From: Actinomycetota bacterium
Lineage (GTDB): Bacteria; Actinomycetota; Thermoleophilia; Gaiellales; F1-60-MAGs149
DNA: 32,044 nucleotides
Direction of reading: 5' to 3'
NCBI GenBank assembly: GCA_009885805.1
Contig: VFJZ01000041.1
Location: forward strand, 1 to 32,044
Shown here: piece after piece, positions 7,323 through 28,574 of the stretch
Numbering within the stretch: the first letter of the stretch is position 1
How the letters are laid out: every line of letters starts with the position of its first letter
Notes under the pieces: generated by a model
Told to the model about the DNA's origin: nothing
The model's input: only the letters and a program-made list of their open reading frames with translations
Databases searched by the model: none
Program-made: the position numbers and the translations under genes

Positions 7323-7799
7323 TCAGCGGGCGCAGACGGCCTTGCAGGCGCGCTGCGGCGACCGGTGCCAGGCGCCGTACGCCGCGTAACTCGCCGCCCG
7401 CGGCCAGGACAACCCCGCGCGGCGCGCCGTGCGCAGCGCGAGCACCGGGGCTCCGGCCATCGCGGCGAGCCAGGGCATATCGACCTGCAGGGGATCGGGC
7501 GTCGCCGCCAGGTGACGGGCGAGAGCGACCCGCGCGGCGCGGCCGTCTCCGGCCCGCAATGCACAGGCCGTGTCGAGGTAGGCGAGCAGCGGCGGCGCGG
7601 CACCCTCGGCGACGGCGCGGCGGCAGGCAGTGACCGCTTCGTCGTAGTCCCCGGCTGCGAACAGCAGCGTCCCGGCCCGGGCGACATCGTCCGCAGCGGC
7701 GGCGCCGTCTTCGACGATGCCACGTGCCAACTCCGTCGCCTCGGCGTGGCGGCCCGGTCCTTCGCGGTAGAGCGTCCAGGCGACCTCGGCGGCGGTCAC
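7323..7799 (-). CDS. Small alpha-helical, TPR-like protein upstream of etfBA
   Basis: 158 residues from GTG 7799, which has a TACGAT box 6 bases upstream and so looks leaderless. The N-terminal two thirds consist of amphipathic helix pairs in tetratricopeptide rhythm (ARAGTLLFAAGDYDEAVTAC, then PPLLAYLDTACALRAGDGRA). The C-terminus is basic and aromatic (SYAAYGAWHRSPQRACKAVC). No catalytic motif or signal peptide is visible. It is probably the first gene of the etfBA transcript, but no role in flavoprotein function can be deduced. The TPR assignment rests on pattern only. Confidence 0.65.
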   Translation of the reverse strand: MTAAEVAWTLYREGPGRHAEATELARGIVEDGAAAADDVARAGTLLFAAGDYDEAVTACRRAVAEGAAPPLLAYLDTACALRAGDGRAARVALARHLAATPDPLQVDMPWLAAMAGAPVLALRTARRAGLSWPRAASYAAYGAWHRSPQRACKAVCAR

Positions 7800-7805
7800 C
7801 GGGGC

Positions 7806-7811
7806 ATCGTA
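7806..7811 (-). promoter_or_regulatory. -10 box of leaderless promoter, TPR-etfBA operon
   Basis: TACGAT on the minus strand, 6 bases before the GTG at 7799. The match to the TANNNT consensus and the spacing agree with the other leaderless starts in the window. Confidence 0.5.
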
Positions 7812-7850
7812 GCCCGTCCCCGCGCTGACGACCCGATCAAGTCGCAGGGG

Positions 7851-7856
7851 TATAGT
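7851..7856 (+). promoter_or_regulatory. -10 box of leaderless promoter, C5-epimerase-like gene
   Basis: TATAGT, 5 of 6 matches to the -10 consensus, sits 7 bases before the GTG at 7864. A weak TGACGA lies 19 bases further upstream. Confidence 0.6.
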
Positions 7857-7863
7857 TGACCGT

Positions 7864-9513
7864 GTGACGCGGCGCCACGTCACCCTCGCCGCGGCCTTCG
7901 CCGTGGCCCTGATCGCCGCACCAGCCGCCTTCGCCGCTGGGCCGCCGATCGAACTCGAGCCGCCCGGATCGCCGCCGGCGCTGATGTCCCCGCGCGCGTT
8001 CACCGCCGTCCACGCGCCGACCGCGGCGCAATCCGTCGGCCAGGCGCTGATCGACGGCGGAATCCCCGGAGCCCAGCGCCGCGAGTATCTCCGACTCCTC
8101 AGCCGGGCCCGGCGGCTCGCGCGCCGTCTCGGTGGGCCAGCCGGCGCGGAGCTCGCGGCCGTCGCGGCGACGACGGTGCAGATCGCGCGCAGCACCGGCT
8201 TCACGCCGGAGCGCGCTCGCGCCGTCTTCCTTGAGCTGGCCGTCAATGTGGAGGAGCTGCCGAACGGGTTGCCGCGGGCGAACGCTCGCCTCCGAATCGA
8301 CTCGCTGACGTTTCAGCGCTACCCGGGCAAGGGCCTGCGGATCCAGCCGCTGGCGTCGTGGTGGTTCGCGCGAGACACGGCGCGCCACGGCGATGCCAAG
8401 ACCACGATCCGACTGCTGGACGCCGCGCTCGAACTGTCGGTGCCGCGCGGCGACGCGCTGACGACGGAGTACCTCTTCGAGTGGGGGCGCGGCGCTCCAC
8501 CCTGGTCGAGCCCGATGGCCCACGGCCTCGCGATGGACGCGCTCGCCCGTGGCTTCGTGCTGACGGGCGACGAGCGGTATCGTGACGCGGCGATCCGCTT
8601 CGCGCGGGCGGTCGCCGTCAGCGACGTCGGCGCGGGTGACGACGTCTGGTTCCCGCTGTACCCGTTCGAACCCGGCCTGCGGGTCCTCAACGCCGATCTG
8701 CAGGTCATCATCGGCCTCGAACGGGTCCGGCTGCTCACGGGCGCCGAGGAGTACGGGGCGCTCGCCGACGCGGCGCGCATCACAGCCGCCGGCCGGCTCG
8801 GCCGCTACGACACCGGTGCCTGGTCGCGGTACTCGGAGCAACGCGAGGCTCCGCTCGAGTACCACGACCTCCACACCGAGCAGCTGACCCAACTCGGGAA
8901 GCTGACGGACGGTGCCGTCTTCGCCGACTACGGCCTGGCATTCGGTGAGTACCGGGTCCAGCCGCCGCTCTTCGACCTCGTCCCCGGCGGCATGCGGGAG
9001 CTGTATCCCGTGCCGGCGGACGGGTTCCGTGACAGCGTCAGGGTCGGCTTCACGCTCTCGAAGCCGACGCGCGTCACGGTGGTGTTCGCGCGGGAGGGCG
9101 GTCCATCGAAGTCGATCAACGTCGGTCTGCGCAGCAGCGGCACGCATGCCGTCCGCTGGGCGCCCGGCGTGACGCCGCCCGGCACGTACAACGTGGTCCT
9201 GAAAGGCACTGACCTCGCCGGCAACAGCGCCCGGCTCGATGACGCGCGCCAGATCGAGGTCGGGCGCGACACCGACCCGCCGCGCATCGTCGAGGTGACG
9301 GTCAGCGGCGGCCGCCTGCGCTGGACCGTCACCGACGCCGGTACGCCGTGGGTGAACGTCGTGATCGGCTCCGGCGCCAACGCGGTGACGCTGAAGCGGC
9401 GGCGCCTGAAGGGGAGCGCTCGGGTAAGCGGTGCGCCGACGGACGTCCGCTTCGTCGACTCGTCCGGAAACACGGCGCGGTGGCGTCGCGTGCCGGTCGT
9501 GCGGCCGGGCTGA
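7864..9513 (+). CDS. Exported protein with D-glucuronyl C5-epimerase C-terminal-type domain
   Basis: 549 residues from a leaderless GTG. There is a signal peptide (residues 1-25, AAAFAVALIAAPAAFAAG). The region of about residues 190-350 is an alpha/alpha-barrel-like domain matching the C5-epimerase C-terminal family: FPLYPFEPGLRVLNADLQVI, GLERVRLLTG, YDTGAWSRYSEQ and YHDLHTEQLTQL. In animals this fold epimerises glucuronate to iduronate in heparan sulfate; here it more likely acts on an exported uronic-acid polysaccharide or is a related lyase/epimerase. Residues of about 385-465 resemble a FlgD/Ig-like beta sandwich (PPGTYNVVLKGTDLAGNSA), and a second beta domain ends the protein. No glycosyltransferase or sulfotransferase genes are nearby, so the substrate is unknown. 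Its last 46 bases are duplicated at 9766-9811. Confidence 0.75.
   Translation: MTRRHVTLAAAFAVALIAAPAAFAAGPPIELEPPGSPPALMSPRAFTAVHAPTAAQSVGQALIDGGIPGAQRREYLRLLSRARRLARRLGGPAGAELAAVAATTVQIARSTGFTPERARAVFLELAVNVEELPNGLPRANARLRIDSLTFQRYPGKGLRIQPLASWWFARDTARHGDAKTTIRLLDAALELSVPRGDALTTEYLFEWGRGAPPWSSPMAHGLAMDALARGFVLTGDERYRDAAIRFARAVAVSDVGAGDDVWFPLYPFEPGLRVLNADLQVIIGLERVRLLTGAEEYGALADAARITAAGRLGRYDTGAWSRYSEQREAPLEYHDLHTEQLTQLGKLTDGAVFADYGLAFGEYRVQPPLFDLVPGGMRELYPVPADGFRDSVRVGFTLSKPTRVTVVFAREGGPSKSINVGLRSSGTHAVRWAPGVTPPGTYNVVLKGTDLAGNSARLDDARQIEVGRDTDPPRIVEVTVSGGRLRWTVTDAGTPWVNVVIGSGANAVTLKRRRLKGSARVSGAPTDVRFVDSSGNTARWRRVPVVRPG
9468..9513 (+). repeat. Direct repeat copy A (3' end of the epimerase-like gene)
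   Basis: This 46-base segment, including the TGA stop, matches 9766-9811 at 41 of 46 positions by eye. It is coding here and non-coding in the second copy. Confidence 0.75.
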
Positions 9514-18297: not shown

Positions 18298-19239
18298 CTA
18301 CGCGGCCAGGCCGTACGTCCGCAGCGACGCCCGCATGCCCTCGTAGGCGGTGACGACGTCAGCGACCGCCTCGCCCGCGAGGCGGATCTGGTCAGCCGCG
18401 TCGGCGGCGGCGGCGACGGCGGCGATCCGCTCGGCCCGCTCCACAAGCGTCGCGAGGCGGTCGACCGCGAACCGCACGGTCGCGGCGGAGCGGTCGGCAC
18501 GCTCGCGGTCCGCCGTTGAGACGCCCGGATCAGCAGCGATCTCCGCGAACAGGGGCTCAGCGTCGGCGACGTAGCCGCCCTCGCTGCCCGCCAGCCCGAC
18601 ACCGTCACCTGGATTGGAGGCCTCCCCATTGGTGTCCAGGTCTCGGACCGGCTCGCCGTGCACGATGTTCGACAGGTGCTCCGCGTGGAAGCGCACGTTG
18701 AAGACGTTGTCCTCGCGCAGCGCCAACTCCAGGAAGCCGGTGTGCTCCACCAGCACGTCGACCTGCGACTGACCGCGCCGCAGTAGGCCGCCAAGATCGG
18801 CGAGCGCCTTGACCGACACCTCCGACGGGCCGGTTGGCGCGGGGACGGTCGTCGCCGGCGGCGGCTCGGCCGTCGTCGCCGGCGGCGGCTCGGCCGTGGT
18901 CGCGGCGACCGGCGCGGCGTCGAGCGCGTCAACGAACGCCGCCACGTCGAGCGCCTCGGGTCCGGTCACGAGCCCGGCCGGCATGGCGCCGCCGCCGGCG
19001 GCGATCTTCGCCAGCGCGGCCTCCGCCGAGACGCCGGCGATGTCGGGGCCGACGCCGCCACCACCGTCGGCGCCGTGGCACGCGGCACACGACGCCGCGA
19101 ACAGCGTCGCCCCACGTGCCGCGTCGCCCGACGCGCCCGCCGTCACCGGCGCCGCCGACGGGCTGAACGGGTGCCACGCAGCGAGGCCACCGACGACCAG
19201 CACGACGAGCAGCATCAGCGCCAGCGGGCGTCCGATCAC
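18298..19239 (-). CDS. Membrane-anchored c-type cytochrome with helical C-terminal domain
   Basis: 313 residues from GTG 19239, which overlaps the preceding stop (GTGA). An N-terminal helix (residues 5-22) serves as export signal or anchor. A single-haem cytochrome c domain follows: CAACH at 51-55 binds the haem and GGAMPAG offers the Met ligand. A Thr/Pro linker at about 112-140 contains two perfect copies of TTAEPPPA. The C-terminal half is an alpha-helical domain with HAEHLSNIVHGEPV, a DLDTNG loop that looks like an EF-hand-type metal site, and NPGDGVGL. I know no firm function for that domain; it recalls domains in other environmental-bacterial cytochromes. With the small membrane protein upstream and the divergent molybdoenzyme it probably carries electrons on the outer face of the membrane. 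Confidence 0.82.
   Translation of the reverse strand: MIGRPLALMLLVVLVVGGLAAWHPFSPSAAPVTAGASGDAARGATLFAASCAACHGADGGGGVGPDIAGVSAEAALAKIAAGGGAMPAGLVTGPEALDVAAFVDALDAAPVAATTAEPPPATTAEPPPATTVPAPTGPSEVSVKALADLGGLLRRGQSQVDVLVEHTGFLELALREDNVFNVRFHAEHLSNIVHGEPVRDLDTNGEASNPGDGVGLAGSEGGYVADAEPLFAEIAADPGVSTADRERADRSAATVRFAVDRLATLVERAERIAAVAAAADAADQIRLAGEAVADVVTAYEGMRASLRTYGLAA
18848..18895 (-). repeat. Perfect 24-bp tandem duplication in the cytochrome linker
   Basis: Two identical 24-base units (18848-18871 and 18872-18895) encode the repeated TTAEPPPA of the linker. The unit is in frame, so only linker length changes. Confidence 0.85.
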
Positions 19240-19709
19240 AGCCCGATCCCAAACTCGCCGAAGTACCAGAGGCCGGACGTGATCCAGAGCAGCGCCAACA
19301 GGGCCGCCACCGCGCCGCCGAACACCGGCAGCGCCCAGGCGGGGTAGCGATGCTCTCGGATGATCAGGATCTTTGCCGCGAAGGCCCCGTAGAAGAACGA
19401 ACCCGCCACCGAGTGGACCGCGACCCGGGCGTCGGTTGTCTGGAAGCCGAGGATCGCCACGCAGTGGAAGACCACGGGCAGCGTGAGCAGGAGCGCGATC
19501 CGACCCGACCAGCGATGCGCCCGCTTCGCCCCGGCGTCGGACAGCGGCACGACCCCGCGCAGCCGCCCCCACATCCGCGCGGCGGTCGAGACCTGCACGA
19601 CGGCGAGCGCGACCGCAGCGGTGGCGAACCACACCTTCGCAACGATCGGCGCCGAGAACACGACCGTCATGAGGTCGGCGTATGCCGACGCGATGTCGAG
19701 GAGGGGCAC
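19236..19709 (-). CDS. Small four-helix membrane protein (possibly DUF6529-like), cytochrome partner
   Basis: 157 residues with about four membrane helices: VWFATAAVALAVVQVSTAA, RIALLLTLPVVFHCVAILGF, VHSVAGSFFYGAFAAKILII and LPVFGGAVAALLALLWITSG. His residues in or near the helices (KRAHRW, VVFHCVAI, AVHSVAGS) could ligate haem b, as in small b561-like or ferric-reductase-like proteins. I suspect the DUF6529 family but cannot confirm it. It overlaps the cytochrome c gene by four bases, so the two act together. The GTG at 19709 is chosen over the ATG at 19718, because the latter lies inside a good -10 box (TACAAT, 7 bases from the GTG). Confidence 0.72.
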   Translation of the reverse strand: MPLLDIASAYADLMTVVFSAPIVAKVWFATAAVALAVVQVSTAARMWGRLRGVVPLSDAGAKRAHRWSGRIALLLTLPVVFHCVAILGFQTTDARVAVHSVAGSFFYGAFAAKILIIREHRYPAWALPVFGGAVAALLALLWITSGLWYFGEFGIGL

Positions 19710-19716
19710 GTGCGCC

Positions 19717-19726
19717 ATTGTAGTCT
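19717..19726. promoter_or_regulatory. Bidirectional -10 element sharing one TA (membrane protein-cyt c / molybdoenzyme)
   Basis: The ten bases ATTGTAGTCT hold TACAAT on the minus strand (19722-19717) and TAGTCT on the plus strand (19721-19726). Both use the same central TA. Each box is 7 bases from its start codon (GTG 19709; ATG 19734), leaving 24 bases between the genes. Confidence 0.6.
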
Positions 19727-19733
19727 GCAGCCG

Positions 19734-20747
19734 ATGCGCCATCCCTGGGCGAACACGGCGCTGCTCGCGCTCGTGCCGCTCGCGCTCGTCACCGGCGTCG
19801 CCGGCGTGATGAGCGGTGGCATGTCGCGCGCCTGGGTACTGATCGCGCACGCAGTCGCGGCGTACGCCCTGATCGCGCTGCTCGTCTTCAAAGCCCGGAT
19901 CATCGCCGGCGCCCTGCGGCGACGACGGCGTATCGACTGCGCTCGCCTCGTGTTCGGAGGCATGGCGCTGCTGCTCGTCGCCGTCCTCGCGACCGGCCTG
20001 GCCTGGATCCTCCTCGGCCGCACGCTGGTCGGCGGCATCTCACTGATCAACATCCACGCCTACCTCGCGATCGCGCTCGCCGTGCCATTCGGCGCTCACG
20101 TCGCCGCCCGGCGCTGGGGCCTGCGCGTCCAGCCGTCTCGCGACCGCGCCGCCTTCCTGCGCCTGGCGGGCCTGGGCGCCCTCGGCCTCGCTGCCTGGGC
20201 CGTCGAATCGGCGGTGGGACGAGCACGCCGCTTCACCGGCTCGTACGAGATCGGCTCACTCGGCGGACGGTTCCCCTCCGTCTCGTGGCTCTTCGACGAC
20301 CCGGCGCCGATCGATCCGGCGACGTGGCGGCTCTCCGTCAGCGGCGCCGTGACAGTCGATCTCAACGTGACCGTCAGTGACCTGACATCTGCCGGACACC
20401 GCCGCGCCATCCTCGATTGCACCGGCGGCTGGTACAGCGAGCAGGACTGGTCAGGCACCGCGCTCGCCGACCTGCTGGACCGCGCGGGGATCCGGGACGG
20501 CGCCCGCAGCGTCGAGGTCGTCGGCGTGACCGGCTACCGGCGGCGCTTCAGCCTCGGCGATGCGCGCACCCTGCTGCTCGCGACCGGCGTCGCCGGTGAG
20601 CCGCTCACGCACGGGCATGGCGCCCCACTCCGACTCGTCGTACCGGGACGACGTGGCTACGACTGGGTCAAGTGGGTCGTCGCCGTGCGCGTCCTGGAGA
20701 GCGACGAGCGGCTCCAGAGTCCGCTCCCGCTGCCGGCGTGGCGCTAA
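19734..20747 (+). CDS. Cytochrome b-like membrane domain fused to a molybdopterin oxidoreductase domain
   Basis: 337 residues. The first 125 residues form four membrane helices (ANTALLALVPLALVTGVAGV, WVLIAHAVAAYALIALLVF, LVFGGMALLLVAVLATGLAW, INIHAYLAIALAVPFGAH). His39, His108 and His122 are candidate haem b ligands. A further hydrophobic stretch at about 143-160 leads into a sulfite-oxidase-type Moco domain at about 175-330. The probable Mo-ligating Cys229 is in ILDCTGGWYSEQDWSG, with VEVVGVTGYRRRFSLGDAR and PLRLVVPGRRGYDWVKWVVA after it. The fold suggests an extracytoplasmic Mo-enzyme passing electrons to its own membrane domain and to the divergent cytochrome c. The substrate is unknown. 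The stop codon lies within a 39-bp perfect palindrome. Confidence 0.82.
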   Translation: MRHPWANTALLALVPLALVTGVAGVMSGGMSRAWVLIAHAVAAYALIALLVFKARIIAGALRRRRRIDCARLVFGGMALLLVAVLATGLAWILLGRTLVGGISLINIHAYLAIALAVPFGAHVAARRWGLRVQPSRDRAAFLRLAGLGALGLAAWAVESAVGRARRFTGSYEIGSLGGRFPSVSWLFDDPAPIDPATWRLSVSGAVTVDLNVTVSDLTSAGHRRAILDCTGGWYSEQDWSGTALADLLDRAGIRDGARSVEVVGVTGYRRRFSLGDARTLLLATGVAGEPLTHGHGAPLRLVVPGRRGYDWVKWVVAVRVLESDERLQSPLPLPAWR

Positions 20748-20774
20748 AGGTGCCCGGCACCTTTAGCGCCACGC
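20736..20774. terminator. 39-bp perfect palindrome at the end of the molybdoenzyme gene
   Basis: Two 19-base arms (20736-20754 and 20756-20774) are exact reverse complements around a single C. The core reads AAAGGTGCC-C-GGCACCTTT. It includes the stop codon and ends 12 bases before the leuB-operon -35. It could act as a bidirectional terminator or be a REP-like element; there is no T-run. Confidence 0.7.
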
Positions 20775-26996: not shown

Positions 26997-28095
26997 GCAA
27001 CGCGAGGGTGGCCGTGAAGCCGTGGACGTGGTTGCGGCCGCCGACGGGCCCGATCTCGCCCTGACAGAACAGGCCGGCGGACGGCACGCCGAGCAGGCGC
27101 TCGACCATCGCCGCATCGTGATCCGGAGCGGTGAACAGGCGGCTACCGCGGCCGTTGCAGGAGAAGACGAGCGCGGCACCGCCGCCGCCGGCGCTCGTCA
27201 GCACCTGCTGGAGCTCGCTCGCCGCCGACGCCTCGTCCCGCACGTGGAAGCGGAACGTCTGGCCGACGCGTGGGACGTCGCCGACGATCAGCGCGCCGCG
27301 CTCGGCGTCGGCGCCGAGCAGGACCCGCACGAGATAGTCCCCGACGCCGTAGTCGGGACGGTTCTCGTCGATCACCAGCCCTGCGAGGAGCCCGTTGCGA
27401 ACGAGGCTCTGGTCGGCCGGCGGTAGCGAGGCGACGATGTCCCGCAGCTTCGTCAGCGCGGGCACACCGGCAAGCTCGAGCAGCGCGTTGCCCGAGGCCG
27501 CCGTCACGACCAGATCAGGGCCGACCGGGCGGCAGCCCTGCGAGACGAGCGGTCGCGCGACCGACGCCGGCAGGACGATGCCGACCGCACCGGCCCGCAG
27601 GACACCGCCGTCACGGAACAGCCGCGCCTGCCCCGCACCGCCACCCCCCGCGAGCCCGCCGACGGCCGCGGCCGTGGTACCCAGACGGGTCACGAGGTCA
27701 GCGATGTCGAACGTGTAGGGGTCGGTGAGGACCACGAGCAGGGAGCCGTCCGGCACGGCGGGCAGGCCGCCGAGATCGGCGAGGGTGTGGAACGCGGTCA
27801 GATCGACGTCAGGCAGCGAGGCGGCCAGAACGGAGACGGCCGGCTCATCCTCGACCTCACGTCCGCAGCCGAGCACCCCCGAGACGCCGACGGCGCCGAC
27901 GAGAGCCCGCGGCGCGAGGTGGTCATGGACGAGCGGGCCAATGCGGACGGCGTCCGCTCCGTACGCGCCGGCGACGAAGACGAAGACGAGGTCGGCGCGG
28001 GCGCCGTCGAGGGCGGCGGCGGCATCGGCCGCGGCTGCCGACGCGGCCGCCTCGGGGTCACGGTCGAGCGCGATGCCAGCGCCGAAGCGGTGCAC
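26989..28095 (-). CDS. FIST N- and C-domain signal-sensing protein
   Basis: 368 residues from GTG 28095. The N-terminal FIST domain is at about 5-190 ([69 protein letters not shown]). The FIST_C domain is at about 200-345 and ends with [14 protein letters not shown], then [24 protein letters not shown] domains are thought to bind small ligands such as amino acids; here the protein stands alone without kinase or cyclase output. It is cytoplasmic, with no signal peptide. The GTG is fixed by TACCAT 6 bases upstream. It diverges from the cyclophilin gene. Confidence 0.85.
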
Positions 28096-28101
28096 GTGGC
28101 C

Positions 28102-28111
28102 ATGGTACCGT
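28102..28111. promoter_or_regulatory. Bidirectional -10 element sharing one TA (FIST gene / cyclophilin)
   Basis: ATGGTACCGT contains TACCAT on the minus strand (28107-28102), 6 bases from the FIST GTG, and TACCGT on the plus strand (28106-28111), 7 bases from the cyclophilin ATG. The central TA is common to both boxes. Confidence 0.6.
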
Positions 28112-28118
28112 CCGCCGC

Positions 28119-28574
28119 ATGCCCGACACCGCCACCCTCACAACGAACCTCGGAACGATCGAGGTCGAACTGTTCCCCGACGACGCGCCCGAGACGGTCG
28201 CGAACTTCGCCAAGCTCGCCGGCGAGGGCTTCTACGACGGCCTGACGTTCCACCGCGTCATCCCGGACTTCATGATCCAGGGTGGCTGCCCGACCGGCGA
28301 CGGGCGCGGCGGGCCGGGCTACAAGTTCGAGGACGAGGCGAACGACAAGCGGATCGTGCGCGGCGCGCTGGCGATGGCAAACGCCGGGCCGAACACGAAC
28401 GGGTCGCAGTTCTTCATCGTCACCGCGGAGGCCTGCTCCTGGCTCGACGGCAAGCACACCGTCTTCGGCCAGGTGACGGCAGGACTCGACATCGTCGACG
28501 CGATCTGCGCGACTGACCGCGACGGCCAGGACCGCCCGAGGACGGCGGTCACCATGTCCGTCGCGATCGACTGA
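28119..28574 (+). CDS. Cyclophilin-type peptidyl-prolyl cis-trans isomerase
   Basis: 151 residues, a single minimal cyclophilin domain. Seen: [38 protein letters not shown] (catalytic Arg in FHR), [20 protein letters not shown], and [20 protein letters not shown]. There is no signal peptide, so it works in the cytoplasm as a folding helper. The ATG is leaderless from the shared -10 element. It converges with the PRC-barrel gene with an 11-base gap. Confidence 0.95.

Follow-up and report, generated by a model that had tools for sequence, protein, structure and literature searches.

Results

Gene Organization at the Locus

The window analyzed here is a complete contig of 32,044 bases, from a 3.56 Mb genome in 101 contigs that is 95% complete and has a GC content of approximately 71%. 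Two transcription units face away from each other across a short spacer near position 19,707. On the minus strand is a gene for a 157-aa DUF6529 membrane protein (PF20139, E 3e-51; 19236..19709), for which a leaderless GTG start at 19709 is predicted in place of the ATG at 19718, followed by a gene for a c-type cytochrome (18298..19239). The GTG start of the cytochrome gene at 19239 overlaps the DUF6529 stop codon (GTGA), and the two genes are therefore very likely to be carried on one transcript. The plus strand encodes a membrane-anchored molybdopterin oxidoreductase of 337 aa (PF00174; 19734..20747), with a predicted leaderless ATG start at 19734, and leuB is located downstream of this gene. 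BLASTP gave no significant match between the two membrane parts, and a shared origin for them was rejected. An inverted repeat with perfect 19-bp arms and a 1-nt loop (20736-20774; GCGTGGCGCTAAAGGTGCC / GGCACCTTTAGCGCCACGC) extends across the molybdoenzyme stop codon and is probably a terminator lacking a clear T run.

Geometry of the Core Element

Positions 19707-19736 read CACGTGCGCC ATTGTAGTCT GCAGCCGATG, with a putative bidirectional core element, ATTGTAGTCT, of the form ANNNTANNNT at 19717..19726 on both strands. The minus-strand -10 box of the DUF6529-cytochrome c operon, TACAAT, runs from 19722 to 19717 and is followed by 7 nt (19716-19710) and GTG 19709; the plus-strand -10 box of the molybdoenzyme gene, TAGTCT, occupies 19721-19726 and is followed by 7 nt (19727-19733) and ATG 19734. 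These opposed TAnnnT boxes overlap at T19721/A19722 alone, bases that are common to both boxes as in bidirectional promoters, and the gap between the two start codons is 24 nt (19710-19733). The coordinates, the overlap at a single TA, the spacings and the gap had been given in the first-pass annotation and are exact to the base in the sequence from 19700 to 19760. This is the sole site in the window with 7-nt spacers on both sides (7/7), and the 30-base pattern that describes it, CAY-N7-ANNNTANNNT-N7-RTG, has this one match in the window and no match in any of 100 dinucleotide-shuffled copies.

Both boxes match the actinobacterial TAnnnT motif; scored against the E. coli -10 consensus, TACAAT is good (5/6) and TAGTCT weak (3/6). 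A classical sigma-70 promoter with a -35 element was sought by a scan that generally fails on actinobacterial promoters too, and none was found at this site. Neither ATG 19734 nor GTG 19709 is preceded by an AGGAG-like Shine-Dalgarno run, in contrast to the leuB start at ATG 20993, which has GAGGAG before it. Each of the two genes has the features of a TAnnnT leaderless gene, a box 6-7 nt before the start and no Shine-Dalgarno sequence, and if transcription begins at the start codons (19709/19734) the predicted distance between transcription start sites (TSSs) is 25 bp.

A second shared-TA element in the window, CACGTGGCCATGGTACCGTCCGCCGCATG (28093..28121, both strands), places the minus box TACCAT 6 nt from GTG 28095 and the plus box TACCGT 7 nt from ATG 28119. 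Its partners encode a protein with FIST N and C domains (PF08495, PF10442; 26989..28095, minus strand) and a cyclophilin-type peptidyl-prolyl isomerase (PF00160; 28119..28574, plus strand). Elsewhere in the window, at 7797-7866, a doubly leaderless divergent pair has separate, non-overlapping boxes and 64 nt between its start codons.

Start Codons of the Divergent Genes

GTG 19709 and ATG 19718 share one minus-strand frame, which is open up to 19850, and ATG 19718 falls within the minus -10 box. In the order, five DUF6529 homologues (L034, L035, L036, L041 and L045) have their start at the fourth residue of the long form, the equivalent of GTG 19709, and L038 has it at the third. A TAnnnT box lies 6-7 nt upstream of the start in 5 of 12 homologues (L034, L035, L038, L041 and L045) and 10-12 nt upstream in four more, and in L034 a stop codon immediately precedes the start equivalent to 19709. 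The correction of the start from ATG 19718 to GTG 19709 that the first-pass annotation had proposed is therefore well supported.

On the plus strand, the N-terminal motif M(R/K)xPWAN is conserved at residue 1 in Chloroflexota homologues, and a TAnnnT box is found 6-7 nt before the start in eight homologues (L002, L004, L005, L069, L071, L073, L074 and L075), comprising three of the four from the order of this genome and 5 of 29 further ones. Each promoter taken alone resembles the one that its gene family uses elsewhere. The nearest homologues found for the molybdoenzyme belong to Chloroflexota (L055-L087) and not to the order, and the gene may therefore have arrived from outside by horizontal transfer.

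Leaderless Starts and Spacing of Divergent Pairs

In an 832-kb sample of the genome, TAnnnT boxes before ATG or GTG near coding starts peak at spacings of 6 nt (91) and 7 nt (53), with mostly about 2-6 at other spacings, secondary peaks at 8-9 nt and no peak within genes. Gene calls in this sample were made with a simple greedy codon-usage caller; the 19707 pair escaped it, the most likely reason being that the minus-strand open reading frame runs open into the plus-strand gene. The 129 divergent pairs called include 12 with a leaderless candidate on both sides, and boxes placed at shifted control spacings yield 0-1 such pair. The start-to-start gaps of the 12 doubly leaderless pairs are 22-23 nt in seven cases and 31, 35, 38, 56 and 64 nt in the others.

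Recurrence in the Genome and the Order

The shared-TA pattern occurs 27 times in this genome, with 3 sites of the 7/7 type, 15 with spacers of 6 and 7 nt (6/7) and 9 with spacers of 6 nt (6/6), compared with 0, 0 and 0 for a reversed-pattern control. This control keeps base content but does not conserve all dinucleotides, and its outcome is matched by those of the Markov and shuffle controls. In the 832-kb sample, 10 shared-TA sites are present against 0.5 ± 0.5 expected from an order-2 Markov model, a count that is slightly favored because the sample consists of contigs already known from pattern hits, while whole-genome counts are unaffected. A chance origin of the shared-TA geometry was rejected on the shuffles of the window, the genome-wide count and the Markov comparison. 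At 23 of the 27 sites there are open frames on both sides that have a coding GC signature (approximately 0.75/0.5/0.9 per codon position) and open exactly at the predicted starts; at about four sites, one of the two flanks has no credible gene. For some partners, including ectoine synthase and DUF2277, the Pfam domain starts at residue 1.

Across 129 genomes of the order, 947 shared-TA sites (180 of the 7/7, 488 of the 6/7 and 279 of the 6/6 type) were counted against 198 in the control (56, 103 and 39), and this genome has the highest count among the 129. In a broader sampling of the phylum, enrichment of the 6/7 pattern is lower, and the class may therefore be particularly marked in this order.

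Conservation at Another Gene Pair

Since none of the relatives examined pairs the DUF6529 and molybdoenzyme genes, conservation was examined instead at a pair encoding a 213-aa protein and a dehydrogenase E1-alpha-like protein. In this unascertained test, the 213-aa protein was used to search the order, and the DNA upstream at the 30 best loci was inspected. The E1-alpha-like gene is divergent in 30/30 loci (L226-L255), and a shared TA with spacers of 6-8 nt is found in 26 of them, with L238 carrying one additionally with a 9-nt spacer. The shared TA persists at protein identities down to approximately 50%, whereas the bases of the element that are not fixed differ freely between loci. In more than 10 genera the two genes have kept this head-to-head order and the shared-TA promoter. 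The retention of the shared TA is strong evidence that selection maintains the geometry at this pair and indirect evidence bearing on the 19707 site.

Gene Partners and the Proposed Redox Module

The DUF6529 gene recurs beside a cytochrome c gene in the order. No molybdoenzyme gene was found near the DUF6529 loci of relatives that were examined, nor was a DUF6529 gene found at the homologous molybdoenzyme loci examined, and among these loci the pairing is unique to this genome. At 20 other shared-TA sites, Pfam scans of the proteins encoded on either side identified mostly unrelated pairs: cyclophilin and FIST, DNA polymerase III delta and a luciferase-like monooxygenase, ectoine synthase and an M20 peptidase, SelA and a D-Ala-D-Ala carboxypeptidase, and LysE and DUF2277. 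A few partners are possibly related, for example two glycosyltransferases. The absence of the pairing from the relatives examined and the mostly unrelated partners elsewhere suggest that sharing of the -10 element reflects compaction and not designed co-regulation. The first-pass annotation had suggested a purpose for the shared element, by which the halves of a redox chain may be produced in alternation or at a set ratio; this part of its proposal is unsupported, given the lack of such neighbors in the relatives examined and the unrelated nature of most other partners.

Discussion

Relation to Known Promoters

Bidirectional promoters have been described in which divergent TSSs lie 7-25 bp apart and share a -10 element, with a distance of 18 bp being the commonest (PMC12825309, PMC10268837) and distances of 10 and 23 bp also common (PMC12825309). 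The arrangement at 19707 resembles the promoters described by Warman, Grainger and colleagues (PMC12825309, PMC10268837) in having opposed -10 elements with common key bases, and the predicted distances, 25 bp here and 23 bp where the spacers are 6 nt long, fall within the 7-25 bp range and fit the 23-bp class. It differs from them in that both predicted transcripts are leaderless and the genes stand head to head; because both mRNAs are predicted to lack leaders, the shared-TA element fills the entire intergenic region.

In Actinobacteria, leaderless starts preceded by TAnnnT are established (PMC3160421, PMC3898074), and they share with the arrangement predicted for the 19707 genes a box directly before the start, no leader and no required -35 element. 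Those boxes are described singly, and the passages retrieved give no account of paired, merged boxes as a recurrent class. For Mycobacterium tuberculosis, divergent promoters are reported to lie frequently in close juxtaposition, and the divergent pair Rv1129c/prpD is shown to be leaderless in both directions (PMC3898074). A -10 motif adjacent to open reading frames in Deinococcus-Thermus (PMC12340547) is also alike in that it consists of a -10 element alone, at fixed spacing, and directs leaderless expression; it belongs to a different phylum, and the words "divergent" and "bidirectional" are absent from that paper. Searches of the literature available returned no account of leaderless genes that recurrently stand head to head on a single merged -10 element, and an earlier description is possible. 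Promoters with a bidirectional -10 element and leaderless genes of the TAnnnT type are each known already, and the arrangement predicted here is a minimal, doubly leaderless and recurrent variant.

Proposed Mechanism and Alternatives

The 24-bp spacer is quite likely a minimal bidirectional promoter for two leaderless transcripts. RNA polymerase with the housekeeping sigma factor would load on ANNNTANNNT in either orientation, melting the same TA. A rightward polymerase would start at or next to ATG 19734 and produce a leaderless molybdoenzyme mRNA, and a leftward polymerase would start at or next to GTG 19709 and produce a leaderless mRNA for DUF6529 and cytochrome c. The two bound forms would be sterically exclusive, with nearly independent outputs at ordinary promoter strength. 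The dinucleotide TA is its own complement, so that merging two TAnnnT boxes costs nothing: four fixed bases replace six and serve two genes, in a genome where A and T are scarce. The arrangement at 19707 would be one of approximately 23-27 such sites in this genome, and compaction of head-to-head leaderless genes is the most likely driver. The bidirectional leaderless promoter put forward by the first-pass annotation is supported by the geometry, its genome-wide excess, the homology of both starts and the deep conservation of the geometry at another gene pair, from which transcription in both directions, the TSS positions, the sigma factor and exclusion are inferred.

Three other explanations were weighed. 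It is conceivable, if unlikely, that only one direction is real, most likely the minus direction from TACAAT, and that the plus gene is transcribed with a leader from a promoter inside the DUF6529 gene. TACAAT is the nearer of the two boxes to the consensus, TAGTCT being weak, and a TAnnnT box alone carries little information, with five sites at a 7-nt spacing in the window against 2.3 expected. However, the box 6-7 nt before the start in three of the four plus-strand homologues of the order, the approximately 20-fold excess over expectation of shared-TA sites flanked on each side by a coding gene and the lack of a Shine-Dalgarno sequence before ATG 19734 all argue against this. A start of DUF6529 at ATG 19718, from a promoter inside the molybdoenzyme gene and with no leaderless promoter on the minus strand, is the least probable of the three; ATG is usually preferred over GTG and the open frame would accommodate it, but neither a TAnnnT box at 6-7 nt nor a Shine-Dalgarno sequence lies upstream of 19718, while the homologues begin at the residue equivalent to 19709, five with a box 6-7 nt before it and L034 with its stop codon directly upstream.

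The remaining explanation, in which the shared -10 element is a dedicated device coupling the DUF6529-cytochrome c operon to the molybdoenzyme gene, with alternating or fixed-ratio output, is considered very improbable. Membrane redox proteins are encoded on both sides, and E. coli offers an established case of steric exclusion at shared -10 elements (PMC12825309), but the genes are not neighbors in any relative examined and most other shared-TA partners are functionally unrelated. Basal outputs of the E. coli bidirectional promoters are moreover independent, with competition arising only under strong activation of one direction (PMC12825309), and alternate or fixed-ratio expression is thus possible and not the default expectation. 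Compaction into a minimal promoter remains the preferred reading of the spacer.

Beyond this locus, the evidence moderately favors the view that shared-TA elements are a distinct, selected class of minimal bidirectional promoters in the order, accounting for about half of doubly leaderless divergent pairs, with the distance between start codons fixed at 22-25 nt, and kept at the housekeeping pair of the 213-aa and E1-alpha-like proteins over more than 10 genera. Should this selected class be real, promoter geometry itself would constrain gene order and intergenic length. If both directions fire, a divergent promoter could hardly be smaller: ten bases with four fixed would fill the whole gap between the coding sequences, and the upstream contacts of each transcript would sit inside the opposite gene. 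The rule CAY-N6/7-ANNNTANNNT-N6/7-RTG could be used to correct start codons in high-GC genomes and to predict paired TSSs from sequence alone, and shared-TA sites could serve as natural, deeply conserved test objects for the regulatory effect of polymerase exclusion at a shared -10 element.

Comparison with the TANNNTA Form

The 18-bp symmetric form of bidirectional promoter has a TANNNTA core, in which positions -7 and -11 of each strand coincide; it was considered for the 19707 site and rejected, the core being ANNNTANNNT. TANNNTA is the most common form among the E. coli bidirectional promoters, in contrast to its lesser use here. This genome has one such site (6/6 and 7/7 spacers covered), making it much rarer than the shared-TA form, and across the order the TANNNTA pattern is moderately enriched with 6/6 spacers (120 vs. 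47 in the control) and below the control with 7/7 spacers (40 vs. 111). A TANNNTA 6/6 site (CATCGCCGGTAGCCTACGGGCAGTG) is present in most genomes of genus g4 in family f1, a genus that has several conserved bidirectional sites, including a shared-TA site between genes for a fabF-like and an M42 peptidase-like protein (named by eye from their N-termini only). In large actinobacterial genomes of genus g79, 7-10 Mb in size, one shared-TA site of the CATCCCATGATTCTATGATGGGCCGCATG type recurs in several, and the geometry is thus present outside the order.
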